Virus record (IMG/VR): IMGVR_UViG_3300035016_000019 | Span: 1-38,135 of that record | DNA: 38,135 bases | Direction: 5' to 3' (one strand) | Source: a virus | Shown: positions 3,104 to 37,790 of the stretch, in pieces | Position numbering within the stretch: position 1 is the first letter of the stretch | How the letters are laid out: every line of letters starts with the position of its first letter | Made by a program: the position numbers and the translations under genes | The notes under the pieces: model-generated | What the model saw: only the letters and a program-made list of their open reading frames with translations | Database searches by the model: none | Told to the model about the DNA's origin: nothing

Positions 3104-3795
3104 TCAGCTCGTCTCCCCGTCGCGGCAGGCGGTGGCGCCCTCGGCCATGCCGATGCGGATGGCGAGCAGCAGTTCGGCGGCGGCCCAGCCGGACGCACCA
3201 AGCTCGCGCGCCGCTGCCAGCGCTCCGGCGGTGTCGAGCGTCAGGCCGGGCATCGTCGCCTCGGCGCAGGCAGTCCCTGCGGCCCAGCAGGCGTGGCCCT
3301 CAAGGCTCACGGGGGCATGCGCGGCGTAGGGGCACTCAGCGCCGCAGTCGCGCGCGAGTGCCGTGCAGCCGCGGCAGTATTCGGGCCCGCGGCCGAAGTG
3401 CCAGGCGGCGCGGACCCTCAGGCGTTTCCCTCGGCGGCCACCGCGGCGACGGGCGCTGTGGCGCGATCCCAGAAGGCGGCGGCGATGTCGTCGAGGTCCA
3501 TCAGGCGCTCGACCGCCTCGGCAGAGAGCGGCAGTCGATTGCCGGCGGCGTCGCCGATGCCCTCCCAGGCGGTGACGGCATGCCGGGCGAGCGCCTTGAC
3601 CAGAAAGGCGAAGGCCACGCCGCGCGACACGTCGGGGTCGAGGTCCGGGTCGGCGATCCGGATCGCCGCAAGGCGGCGCGACGCCGCGGCCTGCGCCGCA
3701 GCCATGACGGCAGTGGTCACCGGACGGATCTCCACGCGCACGCCGCGCGGGAGGTCGAGCCAGTACGGCTCTACGGGGAGGTCGAGGGTGAGCAT
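3104..3795 (-). CDS. Tail assembly chaperone, -1 frameshift product (gpGT-like), about 230 aa
   Basis: After AAC at 3426-3424 the ribosome can slip back one base and continue in an open frame (RLRVRAAWHFGRG...) to a TGA at 3106-3104, adding about 106 residues to the 124 preceding ones. The downstream frame has no ribosome site or ATG near its beginning, which argues against independent translation. The extension contains six cysteines spaced C-x2-C-x6-C-x3-C and later C-x6-C, suggesting metal binding, then a helical C-terminus (AAELLLAIRIGMAEGA). The tape measure ATG follows one base after its stop. In lambda the equivalent fusion recruits the tape measure protein; I infer the same here. Confidence 0.8.
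3387..3430 (-). promoter_or_regulatory. Programmed -1 ribosomal frameshift signal
   Basis: The slippery heptamer GGGAAAC occupies 3430-3424 and is in the correct register (GA-G GGA AAC GCC TGA), matching the X XXY YYZ rule and differing from the lambda G/T site (GGGAAAG) in the last base only. Ten bases downstream, CCGCGCCG can pair with CGG-C-CGCGG around a ten-base loop (3413-3387), a GC-rich stimulatory stem-loop. The zero-frame stop lies one codon after the heptamer. Confidence 0.82.
3418..3795 (-). CDS. Tail assembly chaperone, short form (lambda gpG-like), 125 aa
   Basis: The gene starts at ATG 3795 behind a strong ribosome site (CCGGAGGAAC, seven bases upstream). It begins MLTLDLPVEPYWLDLPRG and continues with conserved-looking ADPDLDPDVSRGVAFAFLVK and a C-terminal DLDDIAAAFWDRA. 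It lies immediately before the tape measure gene, the invariant place of the tail assembly chaperone pair that wraps the tape measure before tube polymerisation. The frame ends ...EGNA-stop directly after a G GGA AAC slippery heptamer, so it is the abundant unshifted product of a gpG/gpGT-type pair. The family call rests on position, size and the frameshift signal. Confidence 0.85.
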   Translation of the reverse strand: MLTLDLPVEPYWLDLPRGVRVEIRPVTTAVMAAAQAAASRRLAAIRIADPDLDPDVSRGVAFAFLVKALARHAVTAWEGIGDAAGNRLPLSAEAVERLMDLDDIAAAFWDRATAPVAAVAAEGNA

Positions 3796-3945
3796 GTTGT
3801 TCCTCCGGTTGGGCCAAGTGCTAGGTGCGGCTGCGCGTCCGTGCTCGGCCGACTTGCCGCTGTGCTGCCTGCCCGACCTGGGCGCGGCTGTCGGCGGCGG
3901 CGCTGCTGCACGAATCTGAGGGTCAGGCTCCGCGATTCCACGGCC

Positions 3946-3969
3946 GGGCCTGAGCGGCTGCTCAGGTCC
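3946..3969. terminator. GC-rich hairpin downstream of the membrane cassette
   Basis: GGGCCTGAGC and GCTCAGGTCC form a ten-pair stem (one G-U) around the four-base loop GGCT. It lies about 100 bases past the UPF0114 stop and about 150 bases before the tail chaperone start. No clear U-tract follows on the minus strand, so intrinsic termination is uncertain. The rest of 3796-4070 contains the chaperone ribosome site and nothing else I can identify. Confidence 0.4.
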
Positions 3970-4070
3970 CGCGGACGAGCCAGATCAGATGTTCGCGGCG
4001 TCCTGCGTTACACTTCGAACGCGAGTGGATTACGGCCAACCCCGCGCGTCCGCACGAACGCCAGACGGTA

Positions 4071-4589
4071 TCATACCCTTTCGTTCTTCCCGGCGTCGCC
4101 GTGATGCGCGCCGAGGCGGTCCAGGATGCCGAGCAGCACGGCGCCGACCAGGAACACCACGTGGATGACCACCCGCCAGAAGACAGCGGTGTCGTTCTGG
4201 ACGTCCGCCTGGAGGAACACCTGCAGCAGGTGGATCGAGGAGATCGCCACCATGGCCGTCGCCACCTTGATCTTTAGGTTGCCGTGGTCGGTGCGTGAGA
4301 CCCAACGCATCTGCTGCTGGTCGGCCTCGCCCTGCAGCCGGTCCACCAAGCTGTCGTAGGAGGAAAGCGCCACCATCACGACGAGCGAGGCGACCAGGGC
4401 GCTGTCGAGCAAGTGCAGCACGTCAATGAGCAGGTCCGCCTCACTCTTCTCCCACAGCTGCGTAGTCAGTTCCCAGAGCTTGCCCACGAACCGCACTGCG
4501 AAGAGGGCCAAACCCCACACAAGACCTAGGAAGAAGACGATTAGCAGAAAACGGCCGGCGAGGATGGCCTTGGCGAGTGCGGGCAGCAT
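4071..4589 (-). CDS. UPF0114 (YqhA-like) inner-membrane protein, 172 aa
   Basis: This is a small integral membrane protein of the UPF0114 family, whose biochemical role is not established. Hydrophobic segments lie at about residues 12-36 (AGRFLLIVFFLGLVWGLALF), 62-80, 107-127 and 137-156. The family hallmarks are visible: the first helix, LLDSALVASLVVMVALSSYD, and the conserved loop WVSRTDHGNLKIKVA at about 96-110. Length matches the family. The ATG at 4589 has GAGGATC upstream. It follows the K+ channel gene by about 70 bases on the same strand and sits inside the tail gene cluster, between tube and chaperone genes, where no virion protein is expected. I read the pair as a moron-type cargo cassette; GC content looks slightly lower than in the flanking virion genes. 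Confidence 0.88.
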   Translation of the reverse strand: MLPALAKAILAGRFLLIVFFLGLVWGLALFAVRFVGKLWELTTQLWEKSEADLLIDVLHLLDSALVASLVVMVALSSYDSLVDRLQGEADQQQMRWVSRTDHGNLKIKVATAMVAISSIHLLQVFLQADVQNDTAVFWRVVIHVVFLVGAVLLGILDRLGAHHGDAGKNERV

Positions 4590-4661
4590 GGCTGATCCTC
4601 GAAGGGAGTGGTGGGATGTCGTGCATGATGGTCGAGAGTTCCGGTGTTCGGGCGTCCGTCC

Positions 4662-5798
4662 TCACGCATCCTCGCGCATGCGGTCGGCGTCTGCGGCAGC
4701 GCGCGGGTCTCCATCCCCAGTCACCTCGTCCCAGTCGTAGCCGAGACCGCTGGCGAGCCCCCTCAGCGCGCCCTCCCACCGGGAGCGATGTTCCAGGTAG
4801 GCGCTCGCGGCTGCTGCCTCATTGGGGCGCTGAGCGATGCCGACCTTCGCAAGCCGAGAGCGCGTCCGTTCGATTCGGCCCTCAAGGTGCGTGCGTCCAC
4901 AGCCGGGCGACGCTGCGACTGGTGCAGGGGCCGATTCATGCAAGCGAAGCGAGGCGGCGACCTCTCGCATGGCGTGGAAGGCCGTCTCCTCCAACGTAAT
5001 GAGCGCCGGGTGGTCGCAAGCCTCCGAGTAGCGGTCCGGGTCAGGGAAGGCGCGGAGCACCGCGCCGGTCTCCAGAGCGAGGAACAGCATACGCGGCAGC
5101 CCGTCATGCACCTCGATGGGGTGGAAGTACTGCGTCACCGGATGCTCAACATGGCTCTCCAGCACCGCCTGGAGGTCATGAGCGGCCTGCGAAAGCACCT
5201 CGTCGAGCCCGACAAAGCGCCCGTCCATGTGGCGGCGTGCCAGCAGTGCAGCCGCGGCGTCGGGACCGCGCCCGGCTTCGTGAAACAGGGCAAGCGCTGC
5301 GGCTCGCCGCCGCTCCAGCGCGCCGTTGACGGTCAGGAAGTAGGCGACCGTCAGCGGAATGGCGATGAAGCCGGTTCCAGACTGCGCGAGAGCAATCAGG
5401 CGCACCGGCATGGCGCGCGGCACGATGTCGCCATAGCCGAGCGTGGTTAAAGTTACGCCGCTGAAGTAGAGCGCCTGAAGCCAGGGGGGCGCGTCTTCCG
5501 CGCCCTCGTCCACGCGGAAGCCCTCGGGCATCCAGGGCAGGTAAATGAGCGCGAAGCCGAGGCTGAGCAGCCCGACCAGCGAGGCGAGCAAGGTAGGTAG
5601 CAGCAGCGGCCCGACTCGGTTCAGCGCGCGATGCCGCTGGTCCCGTGGAAGCCGGGCAGCGATCGCCAGGGCCGCCCGCCAGGCGCCGCGGCTTAGCGCC
5701 TCGGCAACTGGCCCAGCGCGCGCTCGCGCGTGCAGAACAGTGGCATAGACCTCGTAGGCCGCCAGGATGAGCAGGGCGCATCCCGCGAGGGTCAGCAC
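4662..5798 (-). CDS. Potassium channel (two-helix pore with extended cytoplasmic domain)
   Basis: The selectivity filter TLTTLGYGDIVP (about residues 116-127) follows a pore helix (PPWLQALYFSGV) and lies between transmembrane helices at about 64-88 and 136-158, the Ion_trans_2 fold. A further N-terminal hydrophobic helix (LTLAGCALLILAAYEVY) gives three membrane segments plus a re-entrant loop. Residues about 160-378 form a soluble domain without a recognisable RCK/TrkA nucleotide site. The GTG at 5798 is the first conventional start, but the ribosome site is 25 bases upstream and better placed for CTG at 5819, which would add seven residues. It is the first gene of the cargo pair with UPF0114, inserted between tail genes. 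A role in host membrane potential, superinfection exclusion or lysogen fitness is inference. Confidence 0.88.
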   Translation of the reverse strand: MLTLAGCALLILAAYEVYATVLHARARAGPVAEALSRGAWRAALAIAARLPRDQRHRALNRVGPLLLPTLLASLVGLLSLGFALIYLPWMPEGFRVDEGAEDAPPWLQALYFSGVTLTTLGYGDIVPRAMPVRLIALAQSGTGFIAIPLTVAYFLTVNGALERRRAAALALFHEAGRGPDAAAALLARRHMDGRFVGLDEVLSQAAHDLQAVLESHVEHPVTQYFHPIEVHDGLPRMLFLALETGAVLRAFPDPDRYSEACDHPALITLEETAFHAMREVAASLRLHESAPAPVAASPGCGRTHLEGRIERTRSRLAKVGIAQRPNEAAAASAYLEHRSRWEGALRGLASGLGYDWDEVTGDGDPRAAADADRMREDA

Positions 5799-5822
5799 GG
5801 TGCCGCTGAGCGAGGGCAGAAC

Positions 5823-5830
5823 GCCTCCTT
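5823..5830 (-). promoter_or_regulatory. Strong ribosome site that favours a CTG start for the K+ channel
   Basis: On the minus strand, AAGGAGGC is followed by GTT and then CTG at 5819-5817, in frame with the channel gene. The spacing to CTG is near optimal (about five bases), whereas the GTG at 5798 is about 24 bases away. A CTG start would give MPSLSGT ahead of the first membrane helix. Confidence 0.5.
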
Positions 5831-5991
5831 CCGGCTGAGGTCCTCACGGCTCGGCGGATCCGCCGGAGGTCTATGCTCAGCGGGGAGCTAGAACGAGCTT
5901 CGACAAGGCCCGGTTGCGTCGGCCAAACCGGCGATGCTGCTGCGACATAGCGCTTCCGAATGGAAACGGGTATGGTATCGCGGCATAAGAG

Positions 5992-6020
5992 GCGCCGCTA
6001 CAGCGTGCTGGCTCCGGCGC
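5992..6020. terminator. Possible hairpin after the tail tube gene
   Basis: GCGCCG and CGGCGC pair across a loop that contains a further short CAG/CTG stem, about 40 bases after the tail tube stop. On the minus strand it is followed by a weakly T-rich CTCTTATG. It lies at the upstream edge of the inserted membrane cassette. The remaining leader, 5831-5990, shows no promoter I would defend. Confidence 0.3.
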
Positions 6021-6057
6021 TGATTGGGCCAGCTATCTGCGTGTCCAGTACGTTCCG

Positions 6058-7014
6058 CTACGCATAATCCGCTCCCGCCTGCTGATTCTTGAGCACGGCG
6101 GTCATCATACGCGTCGCCGTGGCGTTGTAGGCGGCGCGGAACTCGAAGCTCGCCTCGACGCCCGCTGGCCCCTCGATCGGGGTCTTCGCGAGCGCGAGGT
6201 AGACCTCGTGCAGCGTGAAGGTGAGGCTGCGGTTGGCGTCGATGGTGAACGCGAAGGCGAACTCCGCCGCGGTCCCGTTCCCCGCCTGGGTCAGCAGCGT
6301 GGTGTCGGCGAAGCGCGCGGTGATCTGGCCGGTGGCGCGGGCGATGCCGGGATCCGCGCCCTCGATCTTGCGGTCGGCACGGATCGTGCGCACCGCCTCC
6401 ACGCTGTTCGAGTAGGCGAGCCGAGCGCCGGTGACCTGCGCTAGCGCGGAGCCGCCGCGGGTGATCGAGCCCTGCGCCTTGTGGAAAGCGGTGTAGGCGA
6501 CGGTGGTCGGTGTGCCGCCCGACGACGAGCCCGCGCGCGTCGAGCCCTGGGCGATCAGCTTGATCGTGGCCGTGGCCGGCCCGGTCGGGCTGAAGTCGAT
6601 CTCCAGCGCGTCCGCCCGCACGCCGGCGCAGATGTCGTAGCTCGGCACGTCGGGATAGCCGATCTCGATCGCCTGGGAGGGCAGCGTCGCCGCGCCGGAG
6701 CCGAAGGTGTGGGTGAAGTTGGGATTGGTGCCGGTGGTGGTGGGCGCACCGAGCAGCAGCCGCAGCCAGTGGCCGGTATTGATCAAGTCCACCGGCACGA
6801 CGACGTCGCCTTCCACGGTGACGGTGTCGAGGAAGGGCGCGGCGGGATCGCGATTGCCGCCAAGGCCGATGACGTCGGCGTCCAGCAGGGGCTGCTCGGC
6901 ACCGAGATTGCAGGAGAGGAAGGGCACCCGGCGCCAGTTGCCGCCGGGCGCGGTGCCGTAGGTGACCTCCGGGATCATGAGCAGGCGCGAGTTCGCGCCA
7001 ATGGCACGGGGCAT
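6058..7014 (-). CDS. Major tail (tube) protein, 318 aa
   Basis: This is the tail tube protein that polymerises as stacked hexamers around the tape measure. The N-terminus (MPRAIGANSRLLMIPEVTYG) is the pattern seen in phage tail tube families, in which an early E-x-T-Y/F-G-T motif precedes a beta-rich body. The rest alternates beta-strands and glycine turns, with CAGVRADALEIDFSPTGPA in the middle and YLALAKTPIEGPAGVEASFE and FRAAYNA near the end. Length is normal for the family. It starts 12 bases past the tail terminator gene's stop and is the last tail gene before the inserted membrane cassette, leaving it about 2.2 kb from its usual neighbour, the chaperone. Confidence 0.85.
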   Translation of the reverse strand: MPRAIGANSRLLMIPEVTYGTAPGGNWRRVPFLSCNLGAEQPLLDADVIGLGGNRDPAAPFLDTVTVEGDVVVPVDLINTGHWLRLLLGAPTTTGTNPNFTHTFGSGAATLPSQAIEIGYPDVPSYDICAGVRADALEIDFSPTGPATATIKLIAQGSTRAGSSSGGTPTTVAYTAFHKAQGSITRGGSALAQVTGARLAYSNSVEAVRTIRADRKIEGADPGIARATGQITARFADTTLLTQAGNGTAAEFAFAFTIDANRSLTFTLHEVYLALAKTPIEGPAGVEASFEFRAAYNATATRMMTAVLKNQQAGADYA

Positions 7015-34108: not shown

Positions 34109-34620
34109 CCCGCGGATCCGTGACTCAGCGCCGGCGGCAGGAGGCAGAGCAGCCGGCGCCCACCATCCCGAAGATCGCGCCCGCGCAGGTGCTGTCGCGG
34201 CTGGCCGCGCTGCAGACCGCCACGGCCGCCGAGCTAAAGGAGCAGTGGCGGGCGCTCTTCGGCAAGGAGCCGCCGCCCTTCAACCGGCCCTATCTGGTCA
34301 GTCGCCTCAGTTACCGGGTGCAAGAGCTCGCATATGGGGGCCTCAAGCCGGAGACGCGGGCGCGGCTCGAGGCGCTGGGTGAGCAGCTCGACGGCGGTAA
34401 CGTCGTGCTGCGCCGGATCCGTGCCGACAGCCGGCCGCTGCCAGGCACGCGGCTGGTCCGCGAGTACGACGGCGTGCAGCACGTGGTGACGGTCCGCGCC
34501 GACGACTTCGAGTACGAGGGCCGGCCGTACCGATCGCTCTCCGCCATCGCGCGGCACATCACCGGCACGCGCTGGAACGGTTGGACCTTCTTCGGGCTGA
34601 AGGGGAGGCCTGGGGCATGA
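34105..34620 (+). CDS. DUF2924 protein (recombinase partner), 171 aa
   Basis: The family signature is clear: LKEQWRALFGKEPPPFNRPY, LVSRLSYRVQELAYGGL, then PGTRLVREYDGVQHVVTV and the C-terminal RSLSAIARHITGTRWNGWTF FGL pattern (ending FFGLKG). The middle and end resemble a small DNA-binding AT-hook-like/beta domain. DUF2924 genes almost always sit beside a serine recombinase in alphaproteobacteria, as here; a directionality or accessory role is inferred. A GAGAGGGAG ribosome site precedes ATG 34105, and its stop overlaps the recombinase ATG by four bases. Confidence 0.9.
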   Translation: MTRGSVTQRRRQEAEQPAPTIPKIAPAQVLSRLAALQTATAAELKEQWRALFGKEPPPFNRPYLVSRLSYRVQELAYGGLKPETRARLEALGEQLDGGNVVLRRIRADSRPLPGTRLVREYDGVQHVVTVRADDFEYEGRPYRSLSAIARHITGTRWNGWTFFGLKGRPGA

Positions 34621-35969
34621 GCCGCCGCAAGCTGACGGACGGGGCCATGCCCGCCTCGGTGAAGAAGCTCCGCTGCGCGGTCTACACCCGAAAGAGCACC
34701 GACGAGGGTTTGGACAAGGAGTTCAACACGCTCGACGCGCAGCGCGAGGCCTGCGAGGCGTACGTCGCCAGCCAGCGCGCCGAGGGGTGGGTGCTGGTGC
34801 GCGACCGCTACGACGATGGCGGGTTCTCCGGCGGCACGTTGGAGCGGCCAGCACTGCGCCGCCTCCTGGCCGACATCGAGGTCGGCCTGATCGACGTGAT
34901 CGTGGTCTACAAGATCGATCGTCTGTCGCGCTCGCTCATGGACTTCGCCAAGTTGGTGGAGACCATGGAGGCGCACGGTGTCACCTTCGTCTCCGTCACG
35001 CAGTCCTTCAACACGACCACCAGCATGGGGCGGCTGACGCTGAACATCCTGCTGAGCTTCGCGCAGTTCGAGCGCGAGGTGATTGGAGAGCGCATCCGGG
35101 ACAAGTTCGCTGCGTCGAAGGCGCGCGGCATGTGGATGGGCGGCAAGGTGCCGCTCGGATACGACGTCGCGAACCGCAAGCTGGTCGTGAGCGACACCGA
35201 GGCCGCGCGGGTGCGCCGCGTATTCGAGCTGTTCGTCGAGACAGGCTCCGGCGTTGAGACGGTGCGCCGCCTGCAGGCCGAGGGTGTCACGGCGAAGTCG
35301 GGCCGGCCGCTGGACAAGGGCGATGTCTACAAGATCGTGAACCTGCGGACCTACATCGGCGAGGTCACGCACAAGGGGAGCGTCTACCGCGGCGAGCACG
35401 CGGCGATCGTGCCGCGGGATCTCTGGGACCGGGCGCACGCCGTCCTGCAGGTCAGCCCGCGTAGCCGGGCCGCGCAGAACCGTCAGCATGCGCCGGCGCT
35501 GCTGAAGGGGCTGATCTTCGGCGTGGACGGGCGTGCGCTATCGCCAACCCACTGCGTGAAGAACGGCCGGCTCTACCGCTACTACGTGGCCCAGCGCGTG
35601 CTGAAGTGCGATGCCGCCGGCGACGCCAGCATTGTGCGGAGGGTGTCGGCGGCCGAGATCGAGGCGGCGGTGGTGGATCAGGTGCGTGCACTGCTGCGGC
35701 AGCCCGAGATCGTGGTCGGCACCTGGCGGGCGGCGCGGGCGGAGGCGCCCGACCTGACCGAGGGCGAGACCCACGACGCGCTGCATCGGCTCGACCCGCT
35801 GTGGGAGCAGCTATTCCCGGCCGAACAAGCGCGGATCGTCAGGACGCTGGTGGAGCGAGTGGTGGTCGGGCCCGCCGGCGCCGATATCCGGCTGCGCATC
35901 GAAGGGCTGTCCGGGTTGGTTCGCGACCTCGCGCCGGTGACGCCCGATGGGCTGAGGGCAGCGGCGTGA
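34617..35969 (+). CDS. Serine site-specific recombinase, 450 aa (probable prophage integrase)
   Basis: Resolvase domain at residues 18-165: catalytic Ser27 in AVYTRKSTDEGLD, DDGGFSGGTLERPALRRLL, and VIVVYKIDRLSRSLMDFAKL with the catalytic arginine region. The recombinase domain follows (VPLGYDVANRKLVVSDTEAA, YKIVNLRTYIGEVTHKGSVY), then a beta-ribbon segment (GLIFGVDGRALSPTHCVKNG, YVAQRVLKC) and a helical C-terminus. Length places it among large serine recombinases. GGGGAGG precedes ATG 34617. Being the only recombinase in view, on the opposite strand and next to the repressor at the prophage edge, it is the likely integrase; attachment sites are not identifiable by eye. Confidence 0.9.
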   Translation: MSRRKLTDGAMPASVKKLRCAVYTRKSTDEGLDKEFNTLDAQREACEAYVASQRAEGWVLVRDRYDDGGFSGGTLERPALRRLLADIEVGLIDVIVVYKIDRLSRSLMDFAKLVETMEAHGVTFVSVTQSFNTTTSMGRLTLNILLSFAQFEREVIGERIRDKFAASKARGMWMGGKVPLGYDVANRKLVVSDTEAARVRRVFELFVETGSGVETVRRLQAEGVTAKSGRPLDKGDVYKIVNLRTYIGEVTHKGSVYRGEHAAIVPRDLWDRAHAVLQVSPRSRAAQNRQHAPALLKGLIFGVDGRALSPTHCVKNGRLYRYYVAQRVLKCDAAGDASIVRRVSAAEIEAAVVDQVRALLRQPEIVVGTWRAARAEAPDLTEGETHDALHRLDPLWEQLFPAEQARIVRTLVERVVVGPAGADIRLRIEGLSGLVRDLAPVTPDGLRAAA

Positions 35970-36470: not shown

Positions 36471-37790
36471 ATGCCATCGTTCCGGACTCTGTCGAATTTG
36501 GCGCTTAATCCTGGAGGCAATGTGTTCGTTAGTTTCGCCGAATGGACGAGGGGGCGGTCCATCCAGACGTTAGGCACTAACGTCGGAGCTATTGAGTTGC
36601 CTTTCCAGGGTTGGCGACGCTTTAAAGAGGCATTTGCTCCAGAGCTGGTGTTGCGAGCCACCGAAGAAAGCAAGAACTGCGTTAAGCATTGCATTGACCC
36701 GTTTGGGGGATCAGGAACTACAGGCTTGGCATGCCAATTCCTCGGTATTCGCCCAACACTGGTTGAGGTAAATCCATTTCTTTCTGATCTAATTGGGGCT
36801 AAGCTAACGACCTATGACACCGGGCGGCTCGCACGCGATCTCGGTCGCATCGTCAGGAACGCCGCAGTGCCGGCCAACGCACGAACTTTCTTCCGACAAG
36901 CGCCGACGACTTTTGTCGAACCAGGAGTCGCCGGCCGGTGGATCTTCAATGCTGACGTTGCCGAGCGCATAGCCGCTTTCGCTGGGGCGATCTCGCGCCT
37001 TCGGGAACCAGAGCATCGTCGGCTTTTTCGGGTACTTCTCGGAGGAGGCGTCCTGATTGACTTGAGCAACGTCGTCGTTAGCGGCAAGGGCCGTCGGTAT
37101 CGGCGCGGGTGGGAAGCGCGGTCCGTTGACCCCTCCACGGTGGAGAGGCTGTTTTGCGCTTCCGCTACGAGTGCGATTGAGGAGGTGCACCGCTACGGAA
37201 GGCGCTTAGAGCCAGCTTTCACAATGTTGAGGGGAGATGCGAGGAACTTAGATTTTAAAGACACCCAGTTCGACCTAGCAGTGTTCTCTCCACCCTATCC
37301 GAATTCTTTCGATTACACTGACGTTTATAACGTCGAACTCTGGACATTAGGATATCTGTCGAGCAGCGCGGAAAATCAGAGACTACGAACGTCTACGCTC
37401 TGCTCGCACGTGCAAATTGATCGAGAGTTCGCGCCGCAACCAGCAGGGTCGCCCCTGCTTGAGTTGGCTCTAAACGAACTCCGCAGGCGAGCCACGGAGC
37501 TGTGGGACCGCAGAATTCCCTCGATGGTAGCAGGATATTTCTCTGATCTTATGCGTGTCCTCACCGCATTGCACTCAGCATTGCGGCCAAAGAGCAGCGC
37601 GTGGGTGGTGGTCGGGGACAGCCGTTACGCTGGCGTTGGAATTCGCACGGCCGAAATCCTCGTCGAGTTGGCATTGCAGGCAGGGTGGCGCCTACGATTC
37701 TCAGAGCCATGCCGCTCCATGCGGCTCTCGCCGCAGCAGGGCGGGCAGCACGAGCTCGCCGAAACATTAGTAGTCCTGCAAAGAGTCTAG
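36471..37790 (+). CDS. Site-specific DNA methyltransferase (FGGSGTT...SPPY), up to 439 aa
   Basis: AdoMet motif DPFGGSGTTGLACQFLG lies near residues 76-92 and precedes the catalytic FSPPYPNSFDYTDVYNVELW at about 270-289, the reverse of the order in the two phage methylases. SPPY suggests N4-cytosine methylation. The N-terminal GRSIQTLGTNVGAIELPFQG region and C-terminal SPQQGGQHELAETLVVLQ are typical of this type. ATG 36471 has no ribosome site; GTG 36522 has GGAGG four bases upstream and would give 422 residues. Codon use is more AT-rich than in the prophage, and the gene lies past the recombinase cassette. It is probably part of a flanking restriction-modification or defence locus. Confidence 0.85.
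   Translation: MPSFRTLSNLALNPGGNVFVSFAEWTRGRSIQTLGTNVGAIELPFQGWRRFKEAFAPELVLRATEESKNCVKHCIDPFGGSGTTGLACQFLGIRPTLVEVNPFLSDLIGAKLTTYDTGRLARDLGRIVRNAAVPANARTFFRQAPTTFVEPGVAGRWIFNADVAERIAAFAGAISRLREPEHRRLFRVLLGGGVLIDLSNVVVSGKGRRYRRGWEARSVDPSTVERLFCASATSAIEEVHRYGRRLEPAFTMLRGDARNLDFKDTQFDLAVFSPPYPNSFDYTDVYNVELWTLGYLSSSAENQRLRTSTLCSHVQIDREFAPQPAGSPLLELALNELRRRATELWDRRIPSMVAGYFSDLMRVLTALHSALRPKSSAWVVVGDSRYAGVGIRTAEILVELALQAGWRLRFSEPCRSMRLSPQQGGQHELAETLVVLQRV

Follow-up and report, generated by a model that had tools for sequence, protein, structure and literature searches.

A potassium channel-like gene and a UPF0114 gene as cargo in a hypervariable slot of an Acetobacteraceae phage tail operon

Introduction

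Why a gene for a K+ channel-like protein and a gene of the UPF0114 (YqhA) family should lie side by side between two tail genes of a phage is the question raised by the window analysed here, which comprises the whole 38,135 bp of an IMG/VR virus record (IMGVR_UViG_3300035016_000019). A first-pass annotation had read the two genes as a moron, that is, as extra membrane cargo inserted between virion genes, and both were found where it had placed them, on the strand of the tail genes and between the tail tube and the tail assembly chaperone genes (Table 1). UPF0114 is widespread, Escherichia coli included, and is without known function. Overexpression of yqhA in E. coli led to H2O2 resistance (PMC8228696), and a W14L change in yqhA arose in inhibitor-tolerant strains (PMC10991953). 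Literature text searches, whose journal coverage was partial, returned no description of a function for UPF0114, of its pairing with a channel or of the tube–chaperone site as an insertion slot.

Table 1. Coordinates of the features discussed, in positions of the window
Feature	Position	Strand	Match or basis
Tail assembly chaperone, right slot edge	3418-3795	-	phrog_313, 9.4e-13
Cargo slot, tube stop to chaperone start	3796-6057	-	2.26 kb here; conservation drop and variable gap
UPF0114 (YqhA family) membrane protein gene	4071-4589	-	PF03350, 2.6e-23
K+ channel-like gene	4662-5798	-	Pfam Ion_trans_2 (PF07885), 1.2e-12
Shared two-gene block	4071-5855	-	DNA homology to G1048, 77.7%
Shared two-gene block	4071-5759	-	DNA homology to G1078 contig C38, 74.4%
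Major tail tube protein, left slot edge	6058-7014	-	Phage_tube_2, 3.2e-51
Serine integrase/recombinase	34581-35969	+	Resolvase PF00239, 1.7e-42 at 34677-35135

The phage and its relatives

Judged by its gene content, the window is a temperate siphovirus, encoding a terminase, a portal, tail genes, a primase/helicase and the serine integrase on which the assignment as temperate rests; a serine integrase was also found in 15 of 18 relatives. A tyrosine integrase was searched for in the window phage and rejected, none being found and the serine enzyme being present instead. A DNA methyltransferase gene (36471-37790, + strand; phrog_18146, 2.1e-33) lies near the integrase gene. The tail tubes of most related loci are 78–97% identical, and the named genomes that hold such loci are Roseomonas-group Acetobacteraceae (Roseomonas, Falsiroseomonas, Neoroseomonas, Siccirubricoccus, Elioraea, Caldovatus and others).

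A hypervariable slot between tube and chaperone

The distance between the tube and chaperone genes was measured in 96 related loci carrying both tail genes and ranged from 3 to 5,827 bp; with two divergent loci added (98 loci), 68 distinct values were obtained, with a median of 1,464 bp. As controls in the same 98 loci, the tail terminator and tube genes lay 16–41 bp apart, against 0–5,827 bp across the slot, the chaperone and tape measure genes mostly 220 bp apart, and the tape measure and distal tail genes mostly 7–19 bp apart. In an alignment of 56 chosen loci, the final base of the tube stop codon scored 1.8 bits of column conservation and the base after it 0.16; conserved columns did not reappear before the GGAG of the ribosome-binding site and the ATG of the chaperone gene. 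The tube and chaperone genes had been described as normally adjacent, which held for two empty slots only, of 3 bp (L063) and 17 bp (L042), most relatives carrying an insert. The 95 filled slots, the window's included, fell into 53 unrelated DNA groups, 34 of them singletons, a tally in which the loci are not all independent, since some genomes appear in two collections; no other filled slot matched that of the window. Loci L040 and L085 have tubes that are 84% identical and a slot and chaperone that are 100% identical, marking, as read from these identities, a recent exchange and a slot that moves between phage backbones. With fixed edges, sharp boundaries and a high turnover of unrelated content, the site is a hypervariable slot for cargo, and this slot, which the first-pass annotation could not have seen, is the notable feature of the site.

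Three related prophages with different slot cargo in each were found within single genomes of Siccirubricoccus phaeus (L094, L097, L098), Falsiroseomonas bella (L091, L096, L102) and Caldovatus sediminis (L108, L112, L113). A second insertion site, between chaperone and tape measure, measures about 1.4–1.9 kb instead of the usual 220 bp in ten phages (L009, L013, L018, L047, L050, L091, L095, L101, L112 and L127).

Many conflict families were recognised by Pfam and PADLOC in the slots, with host-like cargo alongside. The defence-type and other conflict genes comprised Lamassu LmuA/LmuB (L087), SIR2 with an SMC-like ATPase (L043), TIR-NLR (L083), a caspase (L003), HEPN-Toprim (L101), PRTase-CE with HD (L027) and ABC-3C, together with an IrrE-like M78 protein with HTH (L116) and a weak DarT match (L069). 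Toxin–antitoxin cargo was represented by ParDE (L015, L046) and a Phd antitoxin (L055), and host-like cargo by the alcohol dehydrogenase, TctC, TPP enzyme, HWE kinase, SMR transporter, NikR, LysR and TauE families. Many slot proteins had no match at all; two very large ones without a Pfam match, at L048:5761-10122 (1453 aa) and L037:9163-11625 (820 aa), are candidates for new systems. The GC content was 0.53–0.65 in 14 defence-type slots, 0.66–0.76 in host-like slots and 0.57–0.72 in toxin–antitoxin slots, these being small classes of our own grouping; the window slot, at 0.672, lies within the latter two ranges and above all 14 defence-type slots. Cargo in the relatives is often encoded on the strand opposite to the tail genes and, when so placed, cannot be transcribed together with the tail operon.

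Moron status of the pair

Because the slot is base-exact, hypervariable and filled with unrelated cargo in relatives, the pair is, on sequence comparison, a moron in a temperate phage, neither a set of core tail genes nor an assembly error. It is absent from all related phages, including as a core component of their tail regions, and is inserted between genes that adjoin one another at the two empty sites, so that its earlier reading as moron-type cargo stands. With the morons of lambdoid and other temperate phages it shares the placement of extra genes between virion genes, the absence from close relatives and the existence of empty sites; it differs from them in that neither promoter nor terminator was detected and that one fixed hypervariable slot holds up to 5.8 kb. 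The signals proposed earlier for the pair fared less well. The hairpin at 5992-6020 lies in a region (5985-6030) that folds no better than shuffled sequences (z -0.2), that at 3946-3969 in a region (3935-3980) with modest folding (z -2.0), and a simple consensus scan of 3300-6300 gave no terminator-like or sigma-70-like site.

The defence hotspots of P2-like phages and P4-like satellites, which are loci of 1–5 kb whose content turns over rapidly and includes many anti-phage systems (PMC9122126), likewise lie as variable loci between two conserved phage genes. The present slot differs in its tube–chaperone position, in its occurrence in an unrelated group of temperate siphophages of Acetobacteraceae and in holding metabolic, transport and regulatory cargo as well.

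The channel and UPF0114 proteins

Ion_trans_2 and UPF0114 were the sole matches of the two slot proteins. The channel protein, of 378 aa, has a transmembrane helix followed by a pore with a TLGYGDIVP filter and by a C-terminal part of about 210 aa that matches nothing known. The two-transmembrane pore with a TxGYGD-type filter is present (PF07885 match; TLGYGD in the sequence), and profile matches to K+ channels in the PDB were confined to the pore. The pore helix and the TLGYGD filter are thus common to this protein and the two-transmembrane K+ channels of the Ion_trans_2 family, to which it adds the N-terminal helix and the unmatched C-terminal part; no RCK or cyclic-nucleotide domain was detected in it. 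The start codon is ambiguous, being either GTG at 5798 or an in-frame CTG seven codons upstream, directly after AGGAGG. A Hailong-like system, considered as a candidate, was rejected, as no nucleotidyltransferase was seen beside the channel.

The UPF0114 protein, of 172 aa, matched PF03350 over its full length (profile 1–117 of 117; 82.9 bits against a cut-off of 23.1), with four helices predicted at low confidence; what sets it apart within the family is the adjoining K+ channel. Single-sequence structure models of the channel (pLDDT 44) and of UPF0114 (pLDDT 67) were too poor for fold searches. Single-protein and alignment queries, which scan for short exact patterns and so give weak negatives, found no close relative of either protein in viral contigs. 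The phage collection held no channel relatives and eight distant UPF0114 matches, with no annotated channel beside them in the two annotated records inspected; the matching record LR756500 carries no annotation. Gp237 of the giant Caulobacter phage CcrColossus (L201) is a UPF0114 protein with no annotated channel nearby.

The pair in host-family genomes

A first pairing test, conducted with distant channel relatives and UPF0114 across the class, found almost no pairing. The conclusion that the pairing does not recur was rejected when 299 Acetobacteraceae genomes, searched with the UPF0114 protein of the window itself, yielded G1048 and G1078. In G1048, the channel (77% protein identity) and UPF0114 (90%) are adjacent, in the order and on the strand seen in the window; read by eye, the surrounding genes encode a penicillin-binding protein, an acyl ligase and a dioxygenase. 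Neither a match to window phage proteins nor any recognisable related prophage was found around the pair. In G1078, UPF0114 (87%) follows a frameshifted channel copy on contig C38, and an intact window-type channel (70%) stands alone, without UPF0114, on contig C3. A Cas2-like protein, identified by eye at L261:7856-8134, lies about 4.5 kb from the UPF0114/broken-channel pair of contig C38 and suggests an accessory region.

The DNA matches to G1048 and to G1078 contig C38 both stop at the UPF0114 stop codon, and the leader with the UPF0114 ribosome-binding site is conserved. Pairwise dS values to G1048 were similar (channel 0.82, UPF0114 0.72), and the dN/dS values of 0.18 and 0.087, respectively, which also reflect the host branch, indicate that both genes are under purifying selection. 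Most simply, the pair would be a unit that existed earlier in the host-family gene pool and was then acquired by the lineage of the window phage. The proposal of a two-component unit is accordingly strengthened by recurrence in G1048 and, with a disrupted channel, in G1078, as a conserved and selectively constrained DNA block; the pairing, introduced as unfamiliar, is not unique to the window but is absent from every related phage. The channel can do without UPF0114, given the lone intact copy in G1078 and the more distant channel-family members examined, which had no UPF0114 within 1.5–8 kb. Distant channel relatives adjoin copper, P-type ATPase and DUF308/DUF2382 genes.

Linkage of a UPF0114 subfamily to K+ channels

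Within the subfamily nearest to the window UPF0114, a head-to-head channel gene with a TVGYGD filter was found at no more than 0.9 kb in 24 of 41 loci and a window-type channel in 2 of the 41; neither channel type lay within about 1.5 kb of any of 38 more distant UPF0114 loci (both sets counted after removal of duplicates). The TVGYGD gene differs from the window channel, and its pore matches K+ channels in the PDB. In the tree, the UPF0114 proteins of the window, G1048 and G1078 form one clade (100/99) within the channel-linked subfamily. The rows closest to this clade are those with the other channel as neighbour, a placement of moderate support (95/75). The head-to-head arrangement is conserved on host chromosomes of many roseomonad genomes (L215-L228, L231-L254), with an epimerase gene likewise adjoining the TVGYGD channel in L167 and L129.

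Since the roseomonad linkage sits in a wider conserved gene block that includes the epimerase gene, some of the 24 linked loci are explained by inheritance of gene order. Shared ancestry and the epimerase block weaken that count, not the existence of two independent arrangements. The simplest reading of the tree and gene orders is that the window UPF0114 kept a K+-channel neighbour while the type and orientation of the channel changed, which supports a functional link between UPF0114 and K+ channels with a change of partner. The earlier suggestion that the pairing could be informative about UPF0114 is borne out to the extent that its subfamily shows linkage to K+-channel genes on host chromosomes.

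Discussion

The best explanation of the locus, to which we give a probability of roughly one in two as a whole, is that a two-gene membrane module from the host-family gene pool entered the cargo slot in the tail operon of a phage of Roseomonas-group Acetobacteraceae and benefits the lysogen. The channel would form a K+-selective pore in the inner membrane, with UPF0114 as its putative accessory or regulatory partner. The pair would be expressed in the lysogen, where a stimulus may shift K+ flux and membrane potential, ion, oxidative or envelope stress being the likeliest trigger, and through this shift the lysogen may gain fitness. Against expression in the lysogen stand the consensus scan, which found no promoter-like site, and a same-strand position that would allow late-only expression. 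As to function, tolerance of ion or envelope stress is our tentative choice, ranked above phage exclusion because of the links of yqhA to H2O2 and inhibitor tolerance and the metal and stress neighbours of distant channel relatives.

The main rival, which we regard as unlikely, is that the pair is a superinfection-exclusion or abortive-infection system in which a Rex-like membrane effector depolarises the cell on infection. The many conflict genes of the slot, from Lamassu, TIR-NLR and SIR2 to ParDE and Phd, speak for exclusion, as do known two-gene prophage systems with a four-transmembrane effector, such as lambda RexAB and Sbash gp30/31 (PMC6426596), and RexAB of Pseudomonas putida as another two-gene prophage system (PMC12894663). 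However, the channel matches no PADLOC model, no UPF0114-related model stood among the matches listed (25 of 94 families), the slot GC lies beyond the defence-type range, and the relatives of the two genes lie on chromosomes or plasmids, among metabolic or stress genes. Activation of P. putida RexB, moreover, proceeded without membrane depolarisation (PMC12894663). RexAB and the present pair are both prophage-borne, consist of two genes and include a membrane effector of ion-channel type, but both partners here are membrane proteins, there is no RexA-like sensor or other DNA- or nucleotide-binding partner, and no sequence relation was seen; the analogy bears on how the pair might work, not on membership of that class.

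A role in the lytic cycle of the phage itself, with the tail operon, for example in membrane potential or lysis timing, agrees with the shared strand and the undetected promoter, but is improbable given the absence of the pair from all related phages and the frequent opposite-strand cargo of their slots. There is similarly little likelihood that the pair is a neutral passenger brought in by illegitimate recombination without benefit; host-like cargo elsewhere (alcohol dehydrogenase, TctC, TPP enzyme) and the frameshifted host-family channel copy are compatible with it, but both reading frames of the window are intact and the pairwise dN/dS values, which reflect the host branch too, are low. 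An assembly artefact joining host and phage DNA at 3.8–6.0 kb, suggested by the host-like character of the block, is practically negligible, both junctions falling at base-exact edges shared with independent cargo in 96 other loci, many from isolate genomes.

Beyond the stress-tolerance module, a further-reaching proposal, possible but on balance doubtful, is that near-subfamily UPF0114 proteins are dedicated accessory or gating partners of K+ channels, and that the phage captured a K+-conductance module with an exchanged channel, serving lysogenic conversion from a major undescribed prophage slot of Acetobacteraceae. For the phages, the slot amounts to a natural collection of uncharacterised cargo, with about 50 groups, many without a domain match, beside recognised defence systems, and is a good place to seek new defence or fitness genes. 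For UPF0114, the recurrent linkage of one subfamily to K+ channels, with an apparent change of channel type, offers the first directly testable hypothesis.
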